Shown here one piece after another: positions 12,708-21,929 of a DNA stretch of 51,506 nt. The translations under genes and the position numbers were made by a program. Origin of the DNA: Flavobacteriales bacterium. GTDB taxonomy: Bacteria; Bacteroidota; Bacteroidia; NS11-12g; UBA955. The notes beneath the pieces are model-generated. The model saw nothing but the letters and a program-made list of their open reading frames with translations, was not told the DNA's origin and made no database searches. Where the stretch lies: NCBI GenBank assembly GCA_947463095.1, contig CANHRE010000009.1, positions 1 through 51,506 on the forward strand. Reading direction: 5' to 3'. Positions within the stretch are counted from its first letter, which is position 1, and each line of letters opens with the position of its first letter.

Positions 12708-12739
12708 TATTCGAACACGCGCTTTTCAGCTTTGTGTTC

Positions 12740-13957
12740 ATGTACAGACAGAAAATTATTAACGACCCGGTACATGGGTTCATCCATGTACAATCTCCGC
12801 TTATCTTTCAGTTGATTCGCCACCCATTTGTTCAGAGGTTGCGACGCATCAGGCAGCTGGGTCTGAGCGATCTGGTTTATCCTGGCGCGACCCATACACG
12901 CTTCCACCATGCCCTGGGTGCCATGCACCTGATGGGTAAATCGCTGGATATCCTGAGAAGTAAGGATATAGCCATCAGCAAGGAAGAATACGAAGCTGCA
13001 TGCGCAGCCATACTGCTTCACGATATTGGCCATGGACCTTTTTCTCATACCCTGGAGCGAAGCATCATCAACGGAATATCCCATGAACGGATTTCGCATT
13101 TGCTTATGGAACAATTGGATGAGGAATGCAACGGGCAATTGCACTTAGCACGGCAAATGTTTGAAGGTAGCTATCCACGAAAATTCTTTACCCAGTTGAT
13201 CAGCGGCCAGTTGGATATGGACAGATTGGATTATCTGCTCCGCGATAGTTTTTATACAGGTGTCAGCGAAGGCATTGTAGGCGCTGACCGCATAGTTCAT
13301 ATGTTGCATGTTCAGGACGATGAACTGGTGGTGGAAGAGAAGGCCATCTACAGCATTGAAAAATTCATCATCGCAAGGCGGTTGATGTATTGGCAGGTTT
13401 ATCTGCATAAAACGGTCATAGCAGCCGATATCCTGCTGTGGAAAATACTGCTGCGCGCTCGCTTGCTGGTAAATGAAGGAAAGCCGCTGGACATCAATGA
13501 ACCACTGGCTTATTTCTTCAGTGCTGAAGCAGCCGCAGCACCGGACTCCTGGAATACCCTGAGCCGCTTTGTGCAGTTGGATGACCACGATGTGCTGTTT
13601 GCCGTAAAACGCTGGCAGTTTGCCGCTGACCCGGTGCTGTCCACCTTATGCCGCAACCTCCTTGAACGCAGGCTGCCGCAAATTGAATTATCCAATAAAC
13701 CCATACCCCGTGCACTGGTAGAAGATAAAATACGCAGCACGGCAGAAGCCATGAACATCAGCCGTGAAGATGCCTTGTTCTTTGTCCATCAGGGAGAATT
13801 GGAAAACGATGCCTATCGCTCTGAGGGCGGCGGTATTCGCATGTTGATGAAAAATGGCAGCCTTGAAGATGTTACCAGAATATCCGATAACTACAGCCTG
13901 GAACCCCTGAAAACAACCGTGGTAAAACACTACCTCTCTTATCCCAGGGCGGTTTAA
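12740..13957 (+). CDS. HD-domain phosphohydrolase (dNTPase/SAMHD1-like)
   Basis: The 405-residue protein has a full HD site: H57 within TRFHHALG, H94-D95 in LLHDIGHGPFSH, and a later aspartate in LDMDRLDYLLRDS. The opening INDPVHGFI and the following QRLRRIRQLG are shared by the SAMHD1-like group, which hydrolyses dNTPs or other nucleotides. The true substrate is unknown. I chose the ATG at 12740 over the in-frame GTG at 12734 because MYRQKIINDPVHG matches the family start. It lies between ychF and lpxD, with 40 nt before lpxD, and could be co-transcribed with either. Confidence 0.82.
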   Translation: MYRQKIINDPVHGFIHVQSPLIFQLIRHPFVQRLRRIRQLGLSDLVYPGATHTRFHHALGAMHLMGKSLDILRSKDIAISKEEYEAACAAILLHDIGHGPFSHTLERSIINGISHERISHLLMEQLDEECNGQLHLARQMFEGSYPRKFFTQLISGQLDMDRLDYLLRDSFYTGVSEGIVGADRIVHMLHVQDDELVVEEKAIYSIEKFIIARRLMYWQVYLHKTVIAADILLWKILLRARLLVNEGKPLDINEPLAYFFSAEAAAAPDSWNTLSRFVQLDDHDVLFAVKRWQFAADPVLSTLCRNLLERRLPQIELSNKPIPRALVEDKIRSTAEAMNISREDALFFVHQGELENDAYRSEGGGIRMLMKNGSLEDVTRISDNYSLEPLKTTVVKHYLSYPRAV

Positions 13958-13997
13958 TGGTCTGAATTAGCGTAATTCGCTGCTATAATTTAAAAGC

Positions 13998-15035
13998 ATG
14001 CAGGTAAGCGCAGCGGAAATAGCAGCCCTCACAGGAGGAACGGTTGTGGGTCATGCCGATGTACAAATCAGCCGCGTTGATAAACTCGAAGAAGCTGGCT
14101 CCCAAAGCCTTTCGTTCTTCTCCAATCCTAAATATCAGGATCGCTTTTTTCAAACCAGTGCAGCCCTTGTATTGATTCCAGCCGACTTTCAAGCAGAACA
14201 GGATTTCCCCTGCACTGTAATTAAAACCCCGAATCCTTATTACGCTTTTTGTCAGGTTCTGGAGCGTTACTTCAACCCCAACCAACATAAAACAGGTAGG
14301 GAAGAAGCTTCCTACACTGCATCTTCAGCAGTTATTGATGATGATGTTTATGTAGGCTACGGCGCCTATGTGGATGAAGGAGCTGTGATAGCCCAAGGCG
14401 TTAAAATTTATCCGCAGGTTTATGTGGGCAGGAATGCCCACGTAGGACCCAATACCATCCTTTATCCGGGTGTGAAGGTCTATGCGGATTGCCACATCGG
14501 CGCACATTGCATCATCCATTCCGGAACAGTAGTTGGAAGCGATGGGTTTGGTTTTGCACCCATCGGCGACGGCAGTTATGCGAAAATCCCTCAGATCGGC
14601 AATGTGGTTATTGAAGATCATGTGGAAATCGGATCCAACTGCACCATTGACCGGGCAACCATGGGCAGCACCATCATTCGAAAGGGCGTGAAACTGGATA
14701 ACCTAATTCAGGTTGCCCACAATGCCGAAATAGGTGAACATACCGTTATTGCCGCCCAAACCGGTGTTTCCGGCAGTACCCGCATCGGGAAGCGCTGCAT
14801 GGTGGGCGGTCAGGTGGGCTTCGTAGGTCATATTTTGGTGGCAGATGGATCGCAAATTGGCGCTCAGAGCGGTATCCAGAAGGAAATTACCGAACCCGGA
14901 CAACAGTGGATTGGCAGTCCGGCAATGCCCCTTAAAGAAGCCTTCCGCACTCAGGTGGTCATGCGGAAACTGCCAGAACTGCAGCAGCGAATTATTCAAT
15001 TAGAGAAGCGCATAGAGGAATTGACGAAATCCTAA
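13998..15035 (+). CDS. lpxD: UDP-3-O-(3-hydroxyacyl)glucosamine N-acyltransferase
   Basis: The 345-residue protein has the LpxD layout: an N-terminal uridine-binding domain (about 1-100, with LSFFSNPKY), a left-handed beta-helix of hexapeptide repeats (about 105-290), and a C-terminal helical tail with a coiled coil (RKLPELQQRIIQLEKRIEEL). The catalytic histidine is H241 in IQVAHNAEIGEH. It adds the N-linked 3-hydroxyacyl chain in the third step of lipid A synthesis. It starts a tight operon: lpxC/fabZ follows after 7 nt, lpxA after another 10, and an ABC ATPase after 3. Confidence 0.95.
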   Translation: MQVSAAEIAALTGGTVVGHADVQISRVDKLEEAGSQSLSFFSNPKYQDRFFQTSAALVLIPADFQAEQDFPCTVIKTPNPYYAFCQVLERYFNPNQHKTGREEASYTASSAVIDDDVYVGYGAYVDEGAVIAQGVKIYPQVYVGRNAHVGPNTILYPGVKVYADCHIGAHCIIHSGTVVGSDGFGFAPIGDGSYAKIPQIGNVVIEDHVEIGSNCTIDRATMGSTIIRKGVKLDNLIQVAHNAEIGEHTVIAAQTGVSGSTRIGKRCMVGGQVGFVGHILVADGSQIGAQSGIQKEITEPGQQWIGSPAMPLKEAFRTQVVMRKLPELQQRIIQLEKRIEELTKS

Positions 15036-15042
15036 TCATTTC

Positions 15043-16473
15043 ATGTCCCAAATTATTCAGAAACAAACTACCATCAAAAAATCAGTATCCTGCTCGGGTA
15101 CCGGATTGCATACCGGCGAACAGGTTACCTTAACCTTTCAACCCGCACCGGAACATCACGGATATAAATTCCAACGCACCGACCTGCCCGGAATGCCGGT
15201 TATTGAAGCCGATTGCGACCTGGTAACCGATACTTCCAGGGGTACAACCTTGGAGAAAAATGGCGCCAAAGTTGCAACTGTAGAACATGTGCTCGCCGCG
15301 TTGGTAGGCTTGCAGATTGATAATGTACTGATACAGGCAAGCGCTGCGGAAATGCCCATTATGGACGGAAGCAGCAGGCCTTTTGTGGATGTATTAATGG
15401 AGGCAGGAACCGTAGAACAGGACGCCGACAGAGAGTATTTTGATATTCCTTACAACATTCATTACACAGACGAGAGCAATAGGGTGGAAATGGTAGCCAT
15501 GCCACTACACGACTATAGGCTTACCGTGATGGTGGATTATAATTCGCCGGTGTTGGGTAGCCAGCATGCTTCGGTAACCAGTTTACAGGAGTTTCCTGAA
15601 CAGATTGCCAGTTGCCGTACCTTCTGCTTTTTACACGAGTTGGAAATGATGCTGCAGCACAACCTGATTAAGGGCGGCGACCTGAACAATGCCATCGTTA
15701 TTGTGGACAGGGTTGTTGAAGACAATGAAATGGACCGTCTTGCCAAACTGTTCAATAAAGAAAAGGTGGAGGTGCGTAAGGAAGGCATTCTGAACAATGT
15801 GGAGTTGCGCTTCCAAAACGAGCCTGCCCGCCACAAGCTGCTCGATATGATTGGCGACCTTGCACTGGTAGGCGTTCCCATCCGCGCCCAAATCATGGCT
15901 GCCCGTCCGGGTCATGCCAGCAACGTGGCCTTCGCCAAAAAAATAAAAGCAGCGTTGAAAAAAGAAAAGCGGAGGCAGAAGGAAGGTATTCCCGATTATC
16001 ATCCTAATGCCAAACCCGTCTTTTCTGCAGCTGATATTCTAAAGATGCTTCCCCATAAACATCCCTTTATGCTGGTTGACAAAATCCTGGAAATGGGAGA
16101 GAAGCATGTTGTGGCTGTGAAAAACGTAACCTTCGACGAGTGGTTCTTTAATGGACATTTCCCCGGCGACCCCATCATGCCGGGGGTTTTGCAGCTGGAA
16201 GCCATGGCGCAGGCCGGTGGTATGCTCATCTTGTCGCAGGTACCCGACCCTCAAAACTACGGTACTTATTTTCTGAAAATAGAAAATGCCCGTTTCAAAG
16301 AGAAAGTGGTTCCCGGTGATACCATGCTGTTTAAGCTGGAACTTACAGAACCTGTGCGCAGGGGGCTTTGTGTGATGCGCGGTCGCGCCTGGGTGGGAGA
16401 TAACCTAGTATGCGAAGCAGAAATGATGGCGCAAATCGTCAAAATCAACAATAACGATTCCACCTCAGCATAA
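15043..16473 (+). CDS. lpxC/fabZ: Bifunctional LpxC deacetylase / FabZ dehydratase fusion
   Basis: This 476-residue protein fuses two enzymes, a known arrangement in Bacteroidota. Residues 1-305 are LpxC, the zinc deacetylase and committed step of lipid A synthesis: H82 in VEHVLAAL, H264 and D268 in RHKLLDMIGD, and H291 in GHASN. A basic linker (305-325, KKEKRRQKEG) leads to FabZ (about 325-470), a hotdog-fold 3-hydroxyacyl-ACP dehydratase with H340 in LPHKHPFML and E386 in GVLQLEAMAQAGG. The fusion couples two enzymes that compete for 3-hydroxyacyl-ACP, the branch point between phospholipid and lipid A. It lies between lpxD and lpxA. Confidence 0.96.
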   Translation: MSQIIQKQTTIKKSVSCSGTGLHTGEQVTLTFQPAPEHHGYKFQRTDLPGMPVIEADCDLVTDTSRGTTLEKNGAKVATVEHVLAALVGLQIDNVLIQASAAEMPIMDGSSRPFVDVLMEAGTVEQDADREYFDIPYNIHYTDESNRVEMVAMPLHDYRLTVMVDYNSPVLGSQHASVTSLQEFPEQIASCRTFCFLHELEMMLQHNLIKGGDLNNAIVIVDRVVEDNEMDRLAKLFNKEKVEVRKEGILNNVELRFQNEPARHKLLDMIGDLALVGVPIRAQIMAARPGHASNVAFAKKIKAALKKEKRRQKEGIPDYHPNAKPVFSAADILKMLPHKHPFMLVDKILEMGEKHVVAVKNVTFDEWFFNGHFPGDPIMPGVLQLEAMAQAGGMLILSQVPDPQNYGTYFLKIENARFKEKVVPGDTMLFKLELTEPVRRGLCVMRGRAWVGDNLVCEAEMMAQIVKINNNDSTSA

Positions 16474-16483
16474 GAATTCAACC

Positions 16484-17266
16484 ATGATACAACCTTTGGC
16501 GTACGTGCACCCTTCGGCTAAAATTGCTGAAAATGTGGTGATAGATCCCTTCGTAACCATTCATAAGAATGTGGAAATAGGCGAGGGAACATGGATAGGT
16601 CCGAATGTGACCATTTTTGAAGGAGTGCGCATTGGTAAAAACTGTCGCATTTTTCCCGGAGCATCTTTGGGCGCCATTCCGCAAGATCTCAAGTTTGAAG
16701 GGGAAGAAACCCTTACCCTGATCGGTGATCATGTTACCATCCGCGAATATGTTACCATTAACAAGGGTACTAAGGCTTTAGGCCATACCAAGGTGGGTAA
16801 CCATGTGCTGTTGATGGCTTATGTGCATCTGGCGCATGATTGCGTAGTGGAAGACCACTGCATTCTGGCCAACAGCGTTCAATTGGCAGGCCACGTGAGC
16901 ATTGGTGAAGCTGCCATCCTTGGTGGCGCCGCCCTGGTACACCAGTTTGTGAAAATTGGCAAGCATTCCATGATTTCCGGAGGCAGCCTGGTGCGCAAGG
17001 ATGTTCCTCCTTACACTAAAGCCGCCCGCGAGCCCTTGTCATACGAAGGTGTAAATTCTATTGGCTTGAGAAGAAGAGGCTTCAGCAATGATCAGATTAA
17101 CGCCATTCAGGATATCTACCGCATCCTGTTTGTAAAAGGATACAATACGGCCACCGCCATCAAGCTTATTGAAACGGAAATTGCCGCTTCCCGGGAACGC
17201 GATGAAATATTGCAGTTCGTGCGCGAAAGCGACCGCGGCATCATGAAGGGCTACCTCACTAAATAA
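16484..17266 (+). CDS. lpxA: UDP-N-acetylglucosamine O-acyltransferase
   Basis: The 260-residue protein is a left-handed beta-helix acyltransferase with hexapeptide repeats over about residues 5-180, followed by a C-terminal helical domain beginning near GLRRRGFSNDQINAI. The catalytic histidine is H118 in VHLAHDC, the region matching E. coli H125. It attaches the first 3-hydroxyacyl chain to UDP-GlcNAc. It is the third gene of the lpxD - lpxC/fabZ - lpxA cluster, and the ABC ATPase begins 3 nt after its stop. Confidence 0.96.
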   Translation: MIQPLAYVHPSAKIAENVVIDPFVTIHKNVEIGEGTWIGPNVTIFEGVRIGKNCRIFPGASLGAIPQDLKFEGEETLTLIGDHVTIREYVTINKGTKALGHTKVGNHVLLMAYVHLAHDCVVEDHCILANSVQLAGHVSIGEAAILGGAALVHQFVKIGKHSMISGGSLVRKDVPPYTKAAREPLSYEGVNSIGLRRRGFSNDQINAIQDIYRILFVKGYNTATAIKLIETEIAASRERDEILQFVRESDRGIMKGYLTK

Positions 17267-17269
17267 AGC

Positions 17270-17884
17270 GTGAGCTTCAGCGTAGTACTGGAGGCCTGTG
17301 GCAAATCCTTTCTGGATCATTGGGTGCTTCGAAACCGTTCCCTGGATCTTCATTCCGGAGAAAGGGCAGCATTGCTGGGTCCAAACGGATCGGGCAAGTC
17401 AACTTTTATGCTCCTTATTTGCGGTTACCTACAACCTACGGAAGGTAAAGTTCAGTATTTCAGCAACGGTAAGGCCATACCGTCTGAACGCATCGGCGCT
17501 CATATCAGCATGTGCCTGCCCAATATGGAAACCTACCAAGAGTTTACACTTGAGCAGCTTCTTGAGTTCCATACTTCCCTGCGCAGCATGCGTTGTTCGT
17601 CAAAAACCGATGACCTTGTAGCCCTGTTGCAGTTCTCCTCTAAAGAGGCCAAACGCCAAATTCGTTTTTTTTCCAACGGCATGCGTCAAAGGTTGAAACT
17701 TGGCTTGGCCATCCTTACGGAATCTTCAGCGGTTTTACTCGATGAACCGCTTACAAATATGGATGTTCAAGGTACTGATCTGTACTATTCCTGGCTGGAT
17801 CAATACCTTGGAGACCGATTATTACTGGTTGCCTCCAACCGAGCAGATGAATATCAGGGCTGTACACGCCTGATTCAGGTATAG
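17270..17884 (+). CDS. Stand-alone ABC ATPase with altered Q- and H-loops
   Basis: The 204-residue protein is a single ABC nucleotide-binding domain starting at a GTG. Walker A is LLGPNGSGKST (residues 36-45), the signature region reads RFFSNGMRQRLKLGL (132-145) in place of LSGGQ, and Walker B is SAVLLDEPLTNMD (153-165). The Q-loop region reads MCLPNMETYQEFT, lacking the usual glutamine, and the H-loop histidine is replaced by N190 in VASNRADEY. I recall a related Bacteroidota family with such changes, but no characterised member. No permease gene is adjacent. Its position 3 nt after lpxA suggests a link with envelope biogenesis, which is inference. It converges with the FG-GAP gene, 7 bp away. 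Confidence 0.85.
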   Translation: MSFSVVLEACGKSFLDHWVLRNRSLDLHSGERAALLGPNGSGKSTFMLLICGYLQPTEGKVQYFSNGKAIPSERIGAHISMCLPNMETYQEFTLEQLLEFHTSLRSMRCSSKTDDLVALLQFSSKEAKRQIRFFSNGMRQRLKLGLAILTESSAVLLDEPLTNMDVQGTDLYYSWLDQYLGDRLLLVASNRADEYQGCTRLIQV

Positions 17885-17891
17885 TTATTCT

Positions 17892-20156
17892 TTAACGAAG
17901 TACGCTGAATGCTGCTGCACTGAGGCTGTTTTCTGCTTCTAATATCAATTGATACATTCCCGGAACCAGCCTTGTAACGTTCACTTCAAGGGCGCCTTCT
18001 TTTTTTCCCGGAGTATAGGTCTGAACCAAACGGCCAGATATATCGTAAATATACATTATAGCATTTTGAGGCATATTGGTTTCAATGCGAATCAGGTCAT
18101 TGGCCGGGTTCGGATAAACCTTTGTATGGAACGTCGGTTCCACAAGTTGAAATGCGTTTCTTTGGCTGTTTTGCACAAACAGGTTCAAACCACCCCTCCG
18201 ATTGCCGCAAACCAATTCCTGCCAGCCGTCACCGTTCAGGTCAGACGCTGCTGCCGCCGCAAAGGAACCCATGTTTACGTCCGGACCATCCTGGTTGCCG
18301 GGATACATCAGGAAATTGGGCCAATATCCTATGCTATCGGGCATAGACTTAAGGTCCAGGGAATAAACCTGAACGGCGCCGTAAGCGCATCCCAGTAAAA
18401 GCTCCTGCTTTTTATCACCATTCAAGTCGCATACATAGGGAACCGCGTAACCATCAGGGGCATAGTCAGGCGGGTTGTAACTATACCTGAACTCATTAGA
18501 ACGTATTTTACCGAAATAATCATCCACCAGGGTGAACGAAGGGGCTGTGGCAGTTCCGGTATGTTCCCATAGCTCCAGTTTTCCGTTGTAGGCACCTACC
18601 AGCAGATCGGGTTTCCCGTCCTTGTTGTAATCCCAGAGGGCCGGAGCAGCGTAGTATCTGCCGCGTTCGGTTTGGATGATGTCCAAAAGGTTGGTATCGG
18701 CCAACACAAAAGCTAATGAGCTGCCAATGGTGTTGTTTACGTAATAGCGAATATATCCGCGGAAATTACCCGCCAGTAGATCAGGCTTTCCATCATTGTT
18801 CAGATCGCCGATGCTGATTTTTAAAAAGGAAATACTCTGGCTGGAGAACTTCAGGAAATCTTCATCTTCAAGAACAAAAGACGGGGTATTGCGTGTACCT
18901 GCATTGCGGAACAATGCGATGCGGTCTTTTTGGTTGCCATAGCGTTCGTAATCGCCATTGTGCACCACCAGCAGATCCTGGTCGCCGTCGCTGTCTACAT
19001 CCCAGAAATGCGGACTGGTATGCCCGCCCAGGTCAATCATGCCGTCCTGCAGCAGATTGTCTTGTTTGAATTGTAAAACGGGCTTGCGGGTCTGTCCGGT
19101 ATTCTGGTAATACCAAACCTGGTTGCGTTCTCGCGATCCTAGATTATCGGCAGGAGCCGTAACCAGATCGGGAATTCCGTCCATATCAACATCGCATTTA
19201 AATCCGGAAGGGAAGTTATAACTGGCGGCGCGCAAGGTATTTCTTGGGAACAAGGTATCCTGGGCAATCATGGTATCCCAGAAGCCATTGAAGTCACTTT
19301 TCCCGTTTTTCAGGTAGAGCAGGTTCGGAAATCCAATATTCCCGATAATCATATCCTGGTCGCCATCATCATCGGTATCCCAAAGCAGGCAACTGCTGCC
19401 CCCTGCATGCCTCCATTTGAAAGATTCTGTGCAGGTGCCCAGGAACACTTCATTGGCAAACGGTGATTCACTAAAATAACCATGGCAGAAATCCACCAGC
19501 CGGTAGCGAAAACTATCCGCCGGAAGACCGAATTCAACCTGCTCATTGCGGCACATGGCATAACCGCCGTACGTACTTTGATAAAAAACAGCGTCCAGGT
19601 CACCATCGCGGTCAATGTCTGTAAAAGATGGAATATCTCCCGGATCCAGTAAAAAGGGCTGCATGTTGAACGGTGGATTGGCTATCACCTCGCGGAGCAT
19701 ATCACCAAGGTCTTCAAATTCAGGAGTGATGCCCTTGCTGATGTTTTTATAGATTTTCAGCCTGCGTGTATCATCCCGGGTGAAGATGTCCATGCGTCCG
19801 TCTTTATTGTAATCTGCAGTCAGGTATACTGCTATTCCCTTGGGAAGATAGGTTTCATAGTCGGCGCGGAACACGAAATTCGGATTACCCGGCGTTCCGG
19901 TGTTCAGGAAAGGCATCACTTTGTTGCCAGTTCTGTCAAATACCAACAGGTCATTCAGCCCATCGCTGTTGAGGTCAAGGTTGTTGAACTGTACATTGTT
20001 CATCCCACCGGCCCATGCGTTCTTCAGCGATTTACCACCAGCAGTAACTGGAATATTCCCACTCATGGCATATGTATAAGATGCCCTTTGTGCAAAAACT
20101 TGTGCACCAAAAAGGGTATGCATAAATAAAATGAAGCCTATACGTATCCGATACAT
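17892..20156 (-). CDS. Secreted FG-GAP/VCBS repeat protein with T9SS sorting domain
   Basis: The 754-residue protein has a signal peptide (about 1-22, cleavage near VFA/QR) and about ten repeats with calcium-binding D-x-N/D-x-D-G-x-x-D cores. The first is DLNSDGLNDLLVF at residue 61, and others are DYNKDGRMDI, DIDRDGDLDAV, DTDDDGDQDMI, DVDSDGDQDLL, DLNNDGKPDLL and DLNGDGWQELV. Such repeats build a beta-propeller like that of integrin alpha chains. The last 80 or so residues are a T9SS type A sorting domain beginning VYPNPANDLIRIE, with DISGRLV and LVPGMYQLIL. It should be exported by the type IX system and attached to or released from the surface. Its ligand is unknown. A variant -7 box (TATTTTCG) ends 5 nt before the ATG. 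Confidence 0.88.
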   Translation of the reverse strand: MYRIRIGFILFMHTLFGAQVFAQRASYTYAMSGNIPVTAGGKSLKNAWAGGMNNVQFNNLDLNSDGLNDLLVFDRTGNKVMPFLNTGTPGNPNFVFRADYETYLPKGIAVYLTADYNKDGRMDIFTRDDTRRLKIYKNISKGITPEFEDLGDMLREVIANPPFNMQPFLLDPGDIPSFTDIDRDGDLDAVFYQSTYGGYAMCRNEQVEFGLPADSFRYRLVDFCHGYFSESPFANEVFLGTCTESFKWRHAGGSSCLLWDTDDDGDQDMIIGNIGFPNLLYLKNGKSDFNGFWDTMIAQDTLFPRNTLRAASYNFPSGFKCDVDMDGIPDLVTAPADNLGSRERNQVWYYQNTGQTRKPVLQFKQDNLLQDGMIDLGGHTSPHFWDVDSDGDQDLLVVHNGDYERYGNQKDRIALFRNAGTRNTPSFVLEDEDFLKFSSQSISFLKISIGDLNNDGKPDLLAGNFRGYIRYYVNNTIGSSLAFVLADTNLLDIIQTERGRYYAAPALWDYNKDGKPDLLVGAYNGKLELWEHTGTATAPSFTLVDDYFGKIRSNEFRYSYNPPDYAPDGYAVPYVCDLNGDKKQELLLGCAYGAVQVYSLDLKSMPDSIGYWPNFLMYPGNQDGPDVNMGSFAAAAASDLNGDGWQELVCGNRRGGLNLFVQNSQRNAFQLVEPTFHTKVYPNPANDLIRIETNMPQNAIMYIYDISGRLVQTYTPGKKEGALEVNVTRLVPGMYQLILEAENSLSAAAFSVLR

Positions 20157-20161
20157 TGTTT

Positions 20162-20175
20162 CGAAAATAACTTTG
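20162..20175. promoter_or_regulatory. Overlapping divergent -7 boxes between the FG-GAP gene and murF
   Basis: The sequence CGAAAATAACTTTG contains TAACTTTG on the plus strand (20168-20175, exact TAnnTTTG match, 59 nt before murF). It also contains TATTTTCG on the minus strand (20169-20162, one mismatch, 5 nt before the FG-GAP gene). The two boxes share two bases. Confidence 0.4.
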
Positions 20176-20234
20176 GAACGCGGTTTCTTGTTTTAGGATT
20201 TAAAAAAAGACGGGGAACGAGGCCATAACGCTGC

Positions 20235-21536
20235 ATGACTACAGAAGAAATTTACCATTTATTCAGGGAATCTGACTACCAGGTAGCTACGGATACCAGA
20301 AAGCTGACACCGGGTTCCCTGTTTATTTGTCTTCAGGGATCCAATTTTGATGCGAACAGTTTTGCCAAAGCCGCTATAGACGGCGGATGCGCCTATGCCC
20401 TGGCTTCTGATTTGGGTGTGTGTGACGGTTTGCGCATCCACTATGTGCCCGATACGCTGCTGGCGCTGCAAGATTTAGCAAGGCATCATCGAAAGCAGAT
20501 GCAGGCTAAGGTCATCGGAATAGGTGGCAGCAATGGAAAAACAACGACCAAGGAACTCACCGCTGCGGTTGCGGCGAAAAAGTTCAATACCATTGCCACA
20601 CAGGCCAACCTCAACAACCATATAGGAGTTCCACTCACTTTACTCCGCATCCGCCCGGAAACGGAAATAGCAGTGGTGGAACTGGGAACCAATCACCCGG
20701 GTGAAATTGCCGTTTTGTGCCAAATAGCACTTCCCGATTCTGGCATCATCACCAACATAGGTAAAGAGCATTTGGAAGGTTTTGGCAGCCTGGAAGGAGT
20801 AGCACGAGAAGAAAGTGAATTATATCGTTTTTTACAGTTGAACGAAGGTATAGCTTTTGTAAATGCCGATGATGAATGGCTGATGCGCATGTCATCCCGT
20901 TTAAAACATGTAGTTCCTTATGGTTTAAATCATAGCGGAAATCATCCTCGTGTTTCGGTAGATCGCTGGTTTCCCTCCCTCGAATTAAACCTTGCCCTTG
21001 AACATGGCAACATCCGGCTGCATTCTTCGCTGGCAGGGGCCCATAACCTGAGCAATATACTGGCGGCGCTGACCATTGGTCTTTTTTACGGTGTTGATAC
21101 CGCAGCGGCCATCGAGGCCATACAAGATTATCAACCTGCCAACAACCGCTCGCAATGGCTGCAAACCGCCCGGAACCTGCTGTGGCTGGATGCGTATAAT
21201 GCCAATCCAAGCAGCATGGAAGCGGCGCTGCGCAGTTTCGCTGTATGGAATCATCCGCATAAGGTGCTGATGCTGGGCGACATGTATGAGCTTGGTGATG
21301 CTGCACACCAGGAGCATGCTGCGATTGTGCAGCTTGCCCATACCCTGGGGTATGAAGAAATTTATCTTGTAGGTGAGCATTTCCACAGGCTGATAGAGGA
21401 AACAGCAGGTGACAAGGTGTTTTTAAACGTGGTCCAGTTGCGGAACTATCTAGAGGCTCATCCTTTGGATGGAGCGGCGGTGTTGGTGAAAGGCAGCAGG
21501 GGAGTGGCCATGGAAAGTGTTGCCGATGTATTGTAA
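20235..21536 (+). CDS. murF: UDP-N-acetylmuramoyl-tripeptide--D-alanyl-D-alanine ligase
   Basis: The 433-residue protein has the MurF three-domain layout: an N-terminal UDP-binding domain (about 1-85, with ATDTRKLTPGSLF), a central ATPase domain with the P-loop GIGGSNGKTTTK (95-106) and the substrate region QANLNNHIGVPLTLL, and a C-terminal domain with LDAYNANPSSMEAAL and LMLGDMYELG. It adds D-Ala-D-Ala to the UDP-MurNAc-tripeptide in peptidoglycan synthesis. The usual GITGSNGKT reads GIGGSNGKT. It stands apart from any mur/dcw cluster, divergent from the FG-GAP gene and 27 nt upstream of a small lipoprotein. Confidence 0.95.
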   Translation: MTTEEIYHLFRESDYQVATDTRKLTPGSLFICLQGSNFDANSFAKAAIDGGCAYALASDLGVCDGLRIHYVPDTLLALQDLARHHRKQMQAKVIGIGGSNGKTTTKELTAAVAAKKFNTIATQANLNNHIGVPLTLLRIRPETEIAVVELGTNHPGEIAVLCQIALPDSGIITNIGKEHLEGFGSLEGVAREESELYRFLQLNEGIAFVNADDEWLMRMSSRLKHVVPYGLNHSGNHPRVSVDRWFPSLELNLALEHGNIRLHSSLAGAHNLSNILAALTIGLFYGVDTAAAIEAIQDYQPANNRSQWLQTARNLLWLDAYNANPSSMEAALRSFAVWNHPHKVLMLGDMYELGDAAHQEHAAIVQLAHTLGYEEIYLVGEHFHRLIEETAGDKVFLNVVQLRNYLEAHPLDGAAVLVKGSRGVAMESVADVL

Positions 21537-21551
21537 TTGCCGGGTGTGTTT

Positions 21552-21559
21552 TAAATTTG
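21552..21559 (+). promoter_or_regulatory. Candidate -7 box for the haem-motif lipoprotein
   Basis: TAAATTTG matches TAnnTTTG exactly and ends 4 nt before the ATG at 21564. A start site at the normal distance would fall at or next to the start codon. Confidence 0.45.
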
Positions 21560-21563
21560 ACTG

Positions 21564-21929
21564 ATGACGAAGACTTTATGGATAAGTTTTGCAGCTGCAT
21601 CAATGCTGATGCTGGCCTGCAAAGCAGCGAAGCCGGTGGTAACGCCCAACACAGCTGTGGTTGCTACAAATAACTCAAATCATGATATTAAGCCGGAATG
21701 GCTGGACATAGCCAAAGATATGGATGGCAGCGCCACCATGGAACACTTGGCCACCGGGAAAACCATTTATTATGAAACCTGCACCAAATGCCATGGCTGG
21801 AAAGACGCCAGGAAATACGATCCGGTAGCCTGGGAGCGGGTATTGCAGGCCATGATACCCAGAGCCAAACTAACGCCTGATGAAGCGCATCATCTGAGGC
21901 TATACACCCTCGTATTTCAGAAGAGTTGA
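21564..21929 (+). CDS. Small lipoprotein with one haem c motif
   Basis: This 121-residue protein has a lipoprotein signal ending at C19 (lipobox LMLAC), a spacer rich in T, V and N, and one CXXCH haem c motif, C73-T-K-C76-H77. A possible axial methionine is M97 in LQAMIPRAKLT. That is the shape of a small class I-like monohaem cytochrome c anchored to a membrane by lipid. It could carry electrons in the periplasm. The partner is unknown, and murF upstream gives no functional clue. It ends just before a strong bidirectional terminator. Haem attachment is inferred from the motif and export signal only. Confidence 0.75.
   Translation: MTKTLWISFAAASMLMLACKAAKPVVTPNTAVVATNNSNHDIKPEWLDIAKDMDGSATMEHLATGKTIYYETCTKCHGWKDARKYDPVAWERVLQAMIPRAKLTPDEAHHLRLYTLVFQKS

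Follow-up and report, generated by a model that had tools for sequence, protein, structure and literature searches.

A lipid A operon-linked ABC ATPase of Bacteroidia is probably a Bacteroidota form of CcmA with an asparagine switch

The ABC ATPase (P0001) encoded directly downstream of lpxA in a 51,506-nucleotide stretch of DNA from a Flavobacteriales bacterium (NCBI GenBank assembly GCA_947463095.1, contig CANHRE010000009.1; the window) is most probably the Bacteroidota form of CcmA, which was displaced from the ccm cluster in Bacteroidia and carries asparagine at the switch histidine site. Its predicted function as CcmA is well supported, and we infer that it partners CcmB, hydrolyses ATP and acts in heme handling. 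The family to which it belongs is a candidate for the missing System I ATPase across Bacteroidota, where curated models fail to recognise it. System I and CcmA are already known; the elements that appear to be new are the asparagine fixed at the switch and the assignment of a gene next to lpxA to CcmA. No description of an lpxA-linked or Asn-switch CcmA was found in the open-licence PMC literature, judged by titles and the beginnings of abstracts, and none is given in the available part of PMC10470608.

The ATPase gene, its motifs and the lpx genes upstream of it have the following positions in the window:

13998..15035, + strand: lpxD (Pfam), in the same operon-like run as the ATPase gene
15043..16473, + strand: lpxC-fabZ fusion gene (Pfam), in the same operon-like run
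16484..17266, + strand: lpxA, immediately upstream of the ATPase gene
17270..17884, + strand: ATPase gene encoding P0001, an ABC ATPase of 204 amino acids, with a GTG start and a TAG stop
17378..17404, + strand: Walker A motif GPNGSGKST, residues 37-45, intact
17513..17548, + strand: Q-loop (lid loop) region, residues 82-93 CLPNMETYQEFT, without Gln at 84 or 85
17669..17683, + strand: signature F134-S-N-G-M138, for which the family consensus is FSSGM
17741..17764, + strand: Walker B D158-E159-P160 and D-loop N163-M-D165, both intact
17837..17839, + strand: N190 at the site of the switch (H-loop) histidine, invariant across the family

P0001 is a member of the ABC ATPase superfamily by its PF00005 match (83.5 bits, E 2.7e-23; cut-off 25) together with its Walker A, Walker B and signature motifs. 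A sequence-only reading of the window had described intact Walker A and Walker B motifs, a missing Q-loop glutamine, the signature FSNGM, an asparagine (N190) in place of the switch histidine, a start 3 nt after lpxA and the lack of a nearby permease gene, and all of these observations were upheld: the catalytic glutamate is E159, and a scan of seven genes around the ATPase gene (window 12734-21929) found no permease. The Q-loop position is P84 or N85 depending on the register, and neither residue is glutamine; the N85 register comes from a MAFFT alignment with E. coli CcmA, and P84 stands at what we take to be the Q-loop position of typical ABC proteins. The other ABC proteins fetched from the same genome retain the switch histidine wherever the tail of the alignment shows the switch. 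A single-sequence structure model of P0001 had a pLDDT of 37. The convergent neighbouring gene ends 7 nt downstream of the ATPase gene. An HD-domain hydrolase gene (12734-13957, + strand) lies directly upstream of lpxD. The window also contains a gene (21564-21929, + strand) for a 121-amino-acid protein with a lipoprotein-like N-terminus, a CTKCH (CxxCH) motif and no Pfam matches; judged by these features, the protein may be a c-type cytochrome with one heme and a substrate of the Ccm machinery.

At E <= 1e-18, relatives of P0001 were present in 52 of the 57 genomes examined from the order; in a sample of 296 genomes of the phylum, 178 contained a relative. A search of genome contigs returned three loci, among which only L031, a 75% identical partial copy in the Bacteroidetes MAG REEB481, was close, and a phage search with the ATPase returned distant ABC matches only. 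The members from Bacteroidia and from other classes matched each other unambiguously in a profile-profile comparison (E 6.2e-75), and the lpx-linked and non-Bacteroidia members formed one clade in the tree (support 99/96). When a profile built from 22 non-Bacteroidia members was used, P0001 scored best among the ABC proteins fetched from its own genome (160.8 bits, best domain; next protein 126.6).

The motifs were compared in an alignment of 119 rows, of which 80 were lpxA-linked and 39 were not; the window gene (L001) was included, and L031-L033 were excluded from the motif and neighbourhood counts. Position 190 is asparagine in 79/79 lpxA-linked and 39/39 other rows that reach it, L002 being cut by a contig end near residue 141, and the switch mostly reads ASN, CSN or ATN. 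Position 84 is proline in 114 rows and glutamine in none of the 119, whereas glutamine occurs at position 85 in 3 of the 80 linked rows (L042, L050, L085) and in 0/39 of the others. The lid loop of the family has the consensus PYLEL-x-EEFT. The supposed fixation throughout a family thus holds for N190 and the Q-loop, with the three glutamines at position 85 as exceptions in that register, but not for N136 of the signature, which is confined to this genus (2/80 linked rows; serine in 75/80). The Walker A lysine and the Walker B aspartate and glutamate are invariant in every row reaching them, as are the serine and glycine of the signature in the family alignments. A divergent subgroup (L114 and L115) has the signature LSTGQ and retains the switch asparagine. 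A degenerate copy heading for loss, the reading that the motif changes alone might invite, has virtually no probability, since the open frame is intact, the same asparagine recurs in 118/118 rows across many bacterial families and the invariance of Walker A, Walker B and the signature residues already contradicts it.

The protein may instead be a CcmA by descent and partner that has lost hydrolysis at a useful rate, so that ATP binding or a very slow cycle drives the release of holo-CcmE. The switch histidine is needed in most ABC proteins, and its uniform replacement by asparagine together with the absent Q-loop glutamine speaks for this possibility, which is nevertheless unlikely, as the Walker A lysine and the Walker B aspartate and glutamate are kept. 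ATP hydrolysis is expected because the catalytic glutamate is retained. Furthermore, the available part of a review (PMC7756269) states that MRP1/ABCC1 kept wild-type-like transport when the H-loop histidine of its hydrolysing site was changed to asparagine or glutamine; an active ATPase is therefore the simplest expectation, and the slow or regulatory ATPase suggested by the sequence-only reading is not required to account for the asparagine.

In class Bacteroidia, lpxA was located upstream on the same strand in 80 of 82 loci examined (exceptions L034 and L077). The ATPase start, taken at the expected first residue, lies within 60 nt of the lpxA stop in 71 of the 80 linked loci, with a median distance of 3 nt. 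In locus L058, a GNAT acetyltransferase gene (1022-1483) is present between lpxA and the ATPase gene, and a similar gap is found in L055 of the same genus. Outside the class, no lpxA was found near the family gene in any of 37 loci, with flanks of up to 4 kb on each side; conservation of the lpxA neighbourhood is accordingly a feature of Bacteroidia and not of the family as a whole. The tight and conserved place after lpxA is the argument for an envelope or lipid A ATPase, which would power an unlinked permease moving a lipid A precursor or regulate synthesis at the LpxA stage. Such a role in envelope biogenesis, as proposed earlier from the sequence, is very improbable. LpxA was detected in all 73 class genomes sampled, whereas the family occurs in 35 of them; 72 family-positive genomes outside the class had no LpxA match, and the link to lpxA is absent from the non-class loci. 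Reading the function from the lpxA linkage was rejected, as the presence of LpxA does not predict that of the family. The retention of the linkage across several Bacteroidia families may mean that co-expression is useful; the gene order would have been set in an ancestor, and constitutive expression is possibly the reason for keeping it.

The distribution of the family instead follows that of CcmB. The same 296 genomes of the phylum were scored for the family, CcmB and LpxA, and a genome was counted as family-positive at E <= 1e-45 (profile A3), a cut set after the two-humped distribution of best E-values had been viewed; moving it to 1e-48 or 1e-50 alters 2 or 3 genomes. Both proteins were found in 186 genomes, the family alone in 3, CcmB alone in 7 and neither in 100, which gives an agreement of 286/296, compared with 121/296 for the family and LpxA as a control. 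Within the class, the family and CcmB agree in 71/73 genomes. The 100 genomes that lack both are all within five families (f5, f6, f8, f13 and f19); the independent losses are therefore few, and Fisher's p-values overstate the association because of this relatedness. A more sensitive CcmB profile, built mostly from this order, recovered CcmB in one of the three family-only genomes (G218, 2.8e-31) and in 6 of 8 relatives of the order missed by Pfam, whereas 5/5 family-negative controls remained negative. Two genomes (G268 and G293) contain the family without CcmB even by this profile. Among the genomes with CcmB only, G078, G141, G252, G295 and G328 have a clear CcmB, and G151 and G112 have marginal matches (E about 5e-4). 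Distances between ATPases correlate with those between CcmB proteins beyond the LpxA distances (partial r 0.54, 25 genomes, by a permutation that ignores relatedness), which lends weak support to a CcmB partnership. The coupling-helix region of CcmB was also compared and was divergent, with an uncertain register.

The order of the genes was examined in 106 non-class genomes with listed positions of the best family match and the best CcmB match. The gene ccmB is located directly downstream of the family gene on the same strand in 38 of them, within 200 nt in 36. Adjacency to ccmB is one arrangement among several, because the family gene does not adjoin ccmB in the remaining 68/106 genomes. The order family gene-ccmB-ccmC-ccmE-ccmF recurs in non-Bacteroidia loci, ccmB being assigned by profile and ccmC, ccmE and ccmF by reading of the clusters. 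An ATPase common to several permeases, or one working for a different ABC-2-like permease whose co-occurrence with System I is incidental, would agree with the 68 genomes without adjacency and with the two genomes that have the family and no CcmB. This explanation is quite improbable in view of the 38 genomes in which the gene adjoins ccmB and of the overall agreement with CcmB, the one permease scored for co-occurrence. According to the available part of PMC11868835, ccmB invariably occupies the second place in a ccmABCD operon, and ccmB operons are diverse outside the alpha-, beta- and gamma-proteobacteria; the displaced ATPase gene qualifies the former statement.

The genome of the window encodes CcmB, CcmC, CcmD, CcmE and CcmF, the System I proteins with which a CcmA is expected to co-occur. 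A single CcmB (32.4 bits; cut-off 24.9) is encoded on contig 21, unlinked to the ATPase gene, which thus does not lie next to ccmB in this genome, and ccmC, ccmD (PF20077), ccmE and ccmF are present in a row on contig 47. No ABC gene was found beside ccmB or beside ccmC-ccmF in the stretches of these contigs that were read. The unlinked permease suggested earlier as the partner of the ATPase is probably CcmB. In the order, CcmE was detected in 54/57 genomes, cytochrome c assembly proteins of the CcmC/CcmF type in 55/57, and CcmB in 49/57 by Pfam and 55/57 after use of the sensitive profile. No gene in these 57 genomes passes the NCBI CcmA model TIGR01189. Since System I is present and matches to the CcmA model are absent, the lpxA-linked ATPase would fill an otherwise empty place. 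Two relatives in the order, G005 (L040, L186) and G024 (L187), encode a long CcsBA-like System II protein of about 1030-1040 amino acids. G005, which carries a family member and matches CcmB at the cut-off, has no CcmE match and only the long CcsBA-like protein.

Direct scoring does not name the protein. P0001 reaches 65.0 bits on TIGR01189, the CcmA equivalog model, against a cut-off of 131.6, and other ABC genes of its own genome outscore it. Two of ten family members scanned pass the cut-off, both from outside Bacteroidia (L095, 146.1; L113, 135.5). Naming by TIGR01189 score gave no discrimination across 57 relatives, and naming by best sequence match was also rejected, as searches of solved structures placed ABCA and ABC-F proteins first. 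The best NCBIfam model for P0001 is an ABC-F (83.5 bits; cut-off 380). An identity as LptB was discarded with 59.7 bits on TIGR04406 against a cut-off of 240. In the tree, proteobacterial CcmA stands alone on a long branch and is not grouped with the family; the AU test gives no preference for or against such a grouping (p 0.32). The switch histidine characteristic of canonical CcmA (9/9) is replaced by asparagine throughout the family (118/118).

The ATPase is proposed to be the motor of CcmABCD, freeing heme-loaded CcmE in cytochrome c maturation by System I. In a pair of subunits, ATP would be bound where the Walker A and B motifs of one meet the signature of its partner, and the asparagine would stand in for the usual switch histidine in contacting the gamma-phosphate. 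The ATPase would then drive CcmB through the lid loop PYLEL-x-EEFT, which replaces the Q-loop; heme in CcmC-CcmD would thereby be loosened, allowing holo-CcmE to depart. In Bacteroidia the gene would have left the ccm cluster to become the last of the lpxD-lpxC/fabZ-lpxA run, its partners being encoded elsewhere. A bolder proposal holds that Bacteroidota mature cytochrome c with a histidine-less CcmA that uses asparagine as the switch in each of the two sites of a homodimer, and that Bacteroidia translate this subunit from the end of the lipid A operon, tying respiratory heme release to outer-membrane synthesis; it is possible, though doubtful. A natural, family-wide change of the switch from histidine to asparagine, in a protein that is probably homodimeric and has an intact catalytic glutamate, provides a clear-cut example in which to study the role of the H-loop histidine.

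Three known systems may be compared with the family. LptB, the ATPase of LPS export, is also a short ABC ATPase, and the lpx neighbourhood suggests the comparison; it differs in that the presence of the ATPase family does not follow LpxA. The degenerate-site ABC exporters TAP, CFTR and Pdr5 resemble the family in deviating at the H-loop and at further motifs, with one of two sites degenerate and the Walker B glutamate often changed as well, according to the available part of PMC7756269. The family differs from them in that a single gene product, presumably a homodimer, would place asparagine in both sites and keep the glutamate. The third system is CcmA of Pseudomonadota, including that of E. 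coli, which is likewise a stand-alone ABC ATPase and short, at about 205 amino acids, and with which the family shares the partner CcmB (putatively so in the family) and a lid loop without a fixed glutamine. Structures of CcmABCD are described in PMC9616876 and PMC10457321, both available in part. The former proposes that ATP-driven movement loosens heme in CcmC and lets holo-CcmE leave; in the latter, the switch I region of E. coli CcmA ends in TTHQP, and the lid loop IGHQPGIKTRL is crucial for contact with CcmB. The differences lie in the switch (asparagine in the family, histidine in canonical CcmA), the lid loop (PYLEL-x-EEFT as against GHQPGIK), the signature (FSSGM as against LSAGQ or LSQGQ) and the place of the gene, which in Bacteroidia is in the lpx operon, unlike that of Pseudomonadota. 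The Q-loop glutamine is present in only 4 of 9 canonical CcmA proteins (GHQ in four; GHP, GHV and GHA in one each; GHR in two). Because canonical CcmA also has no fixed glutamine and keeps the histidine in all nine, the loss of the glutamine appears from these alignments to be a trait common to CcmA-type proteins, and the asparagine switch to be the true peculiarity of the Bacteroidota family.
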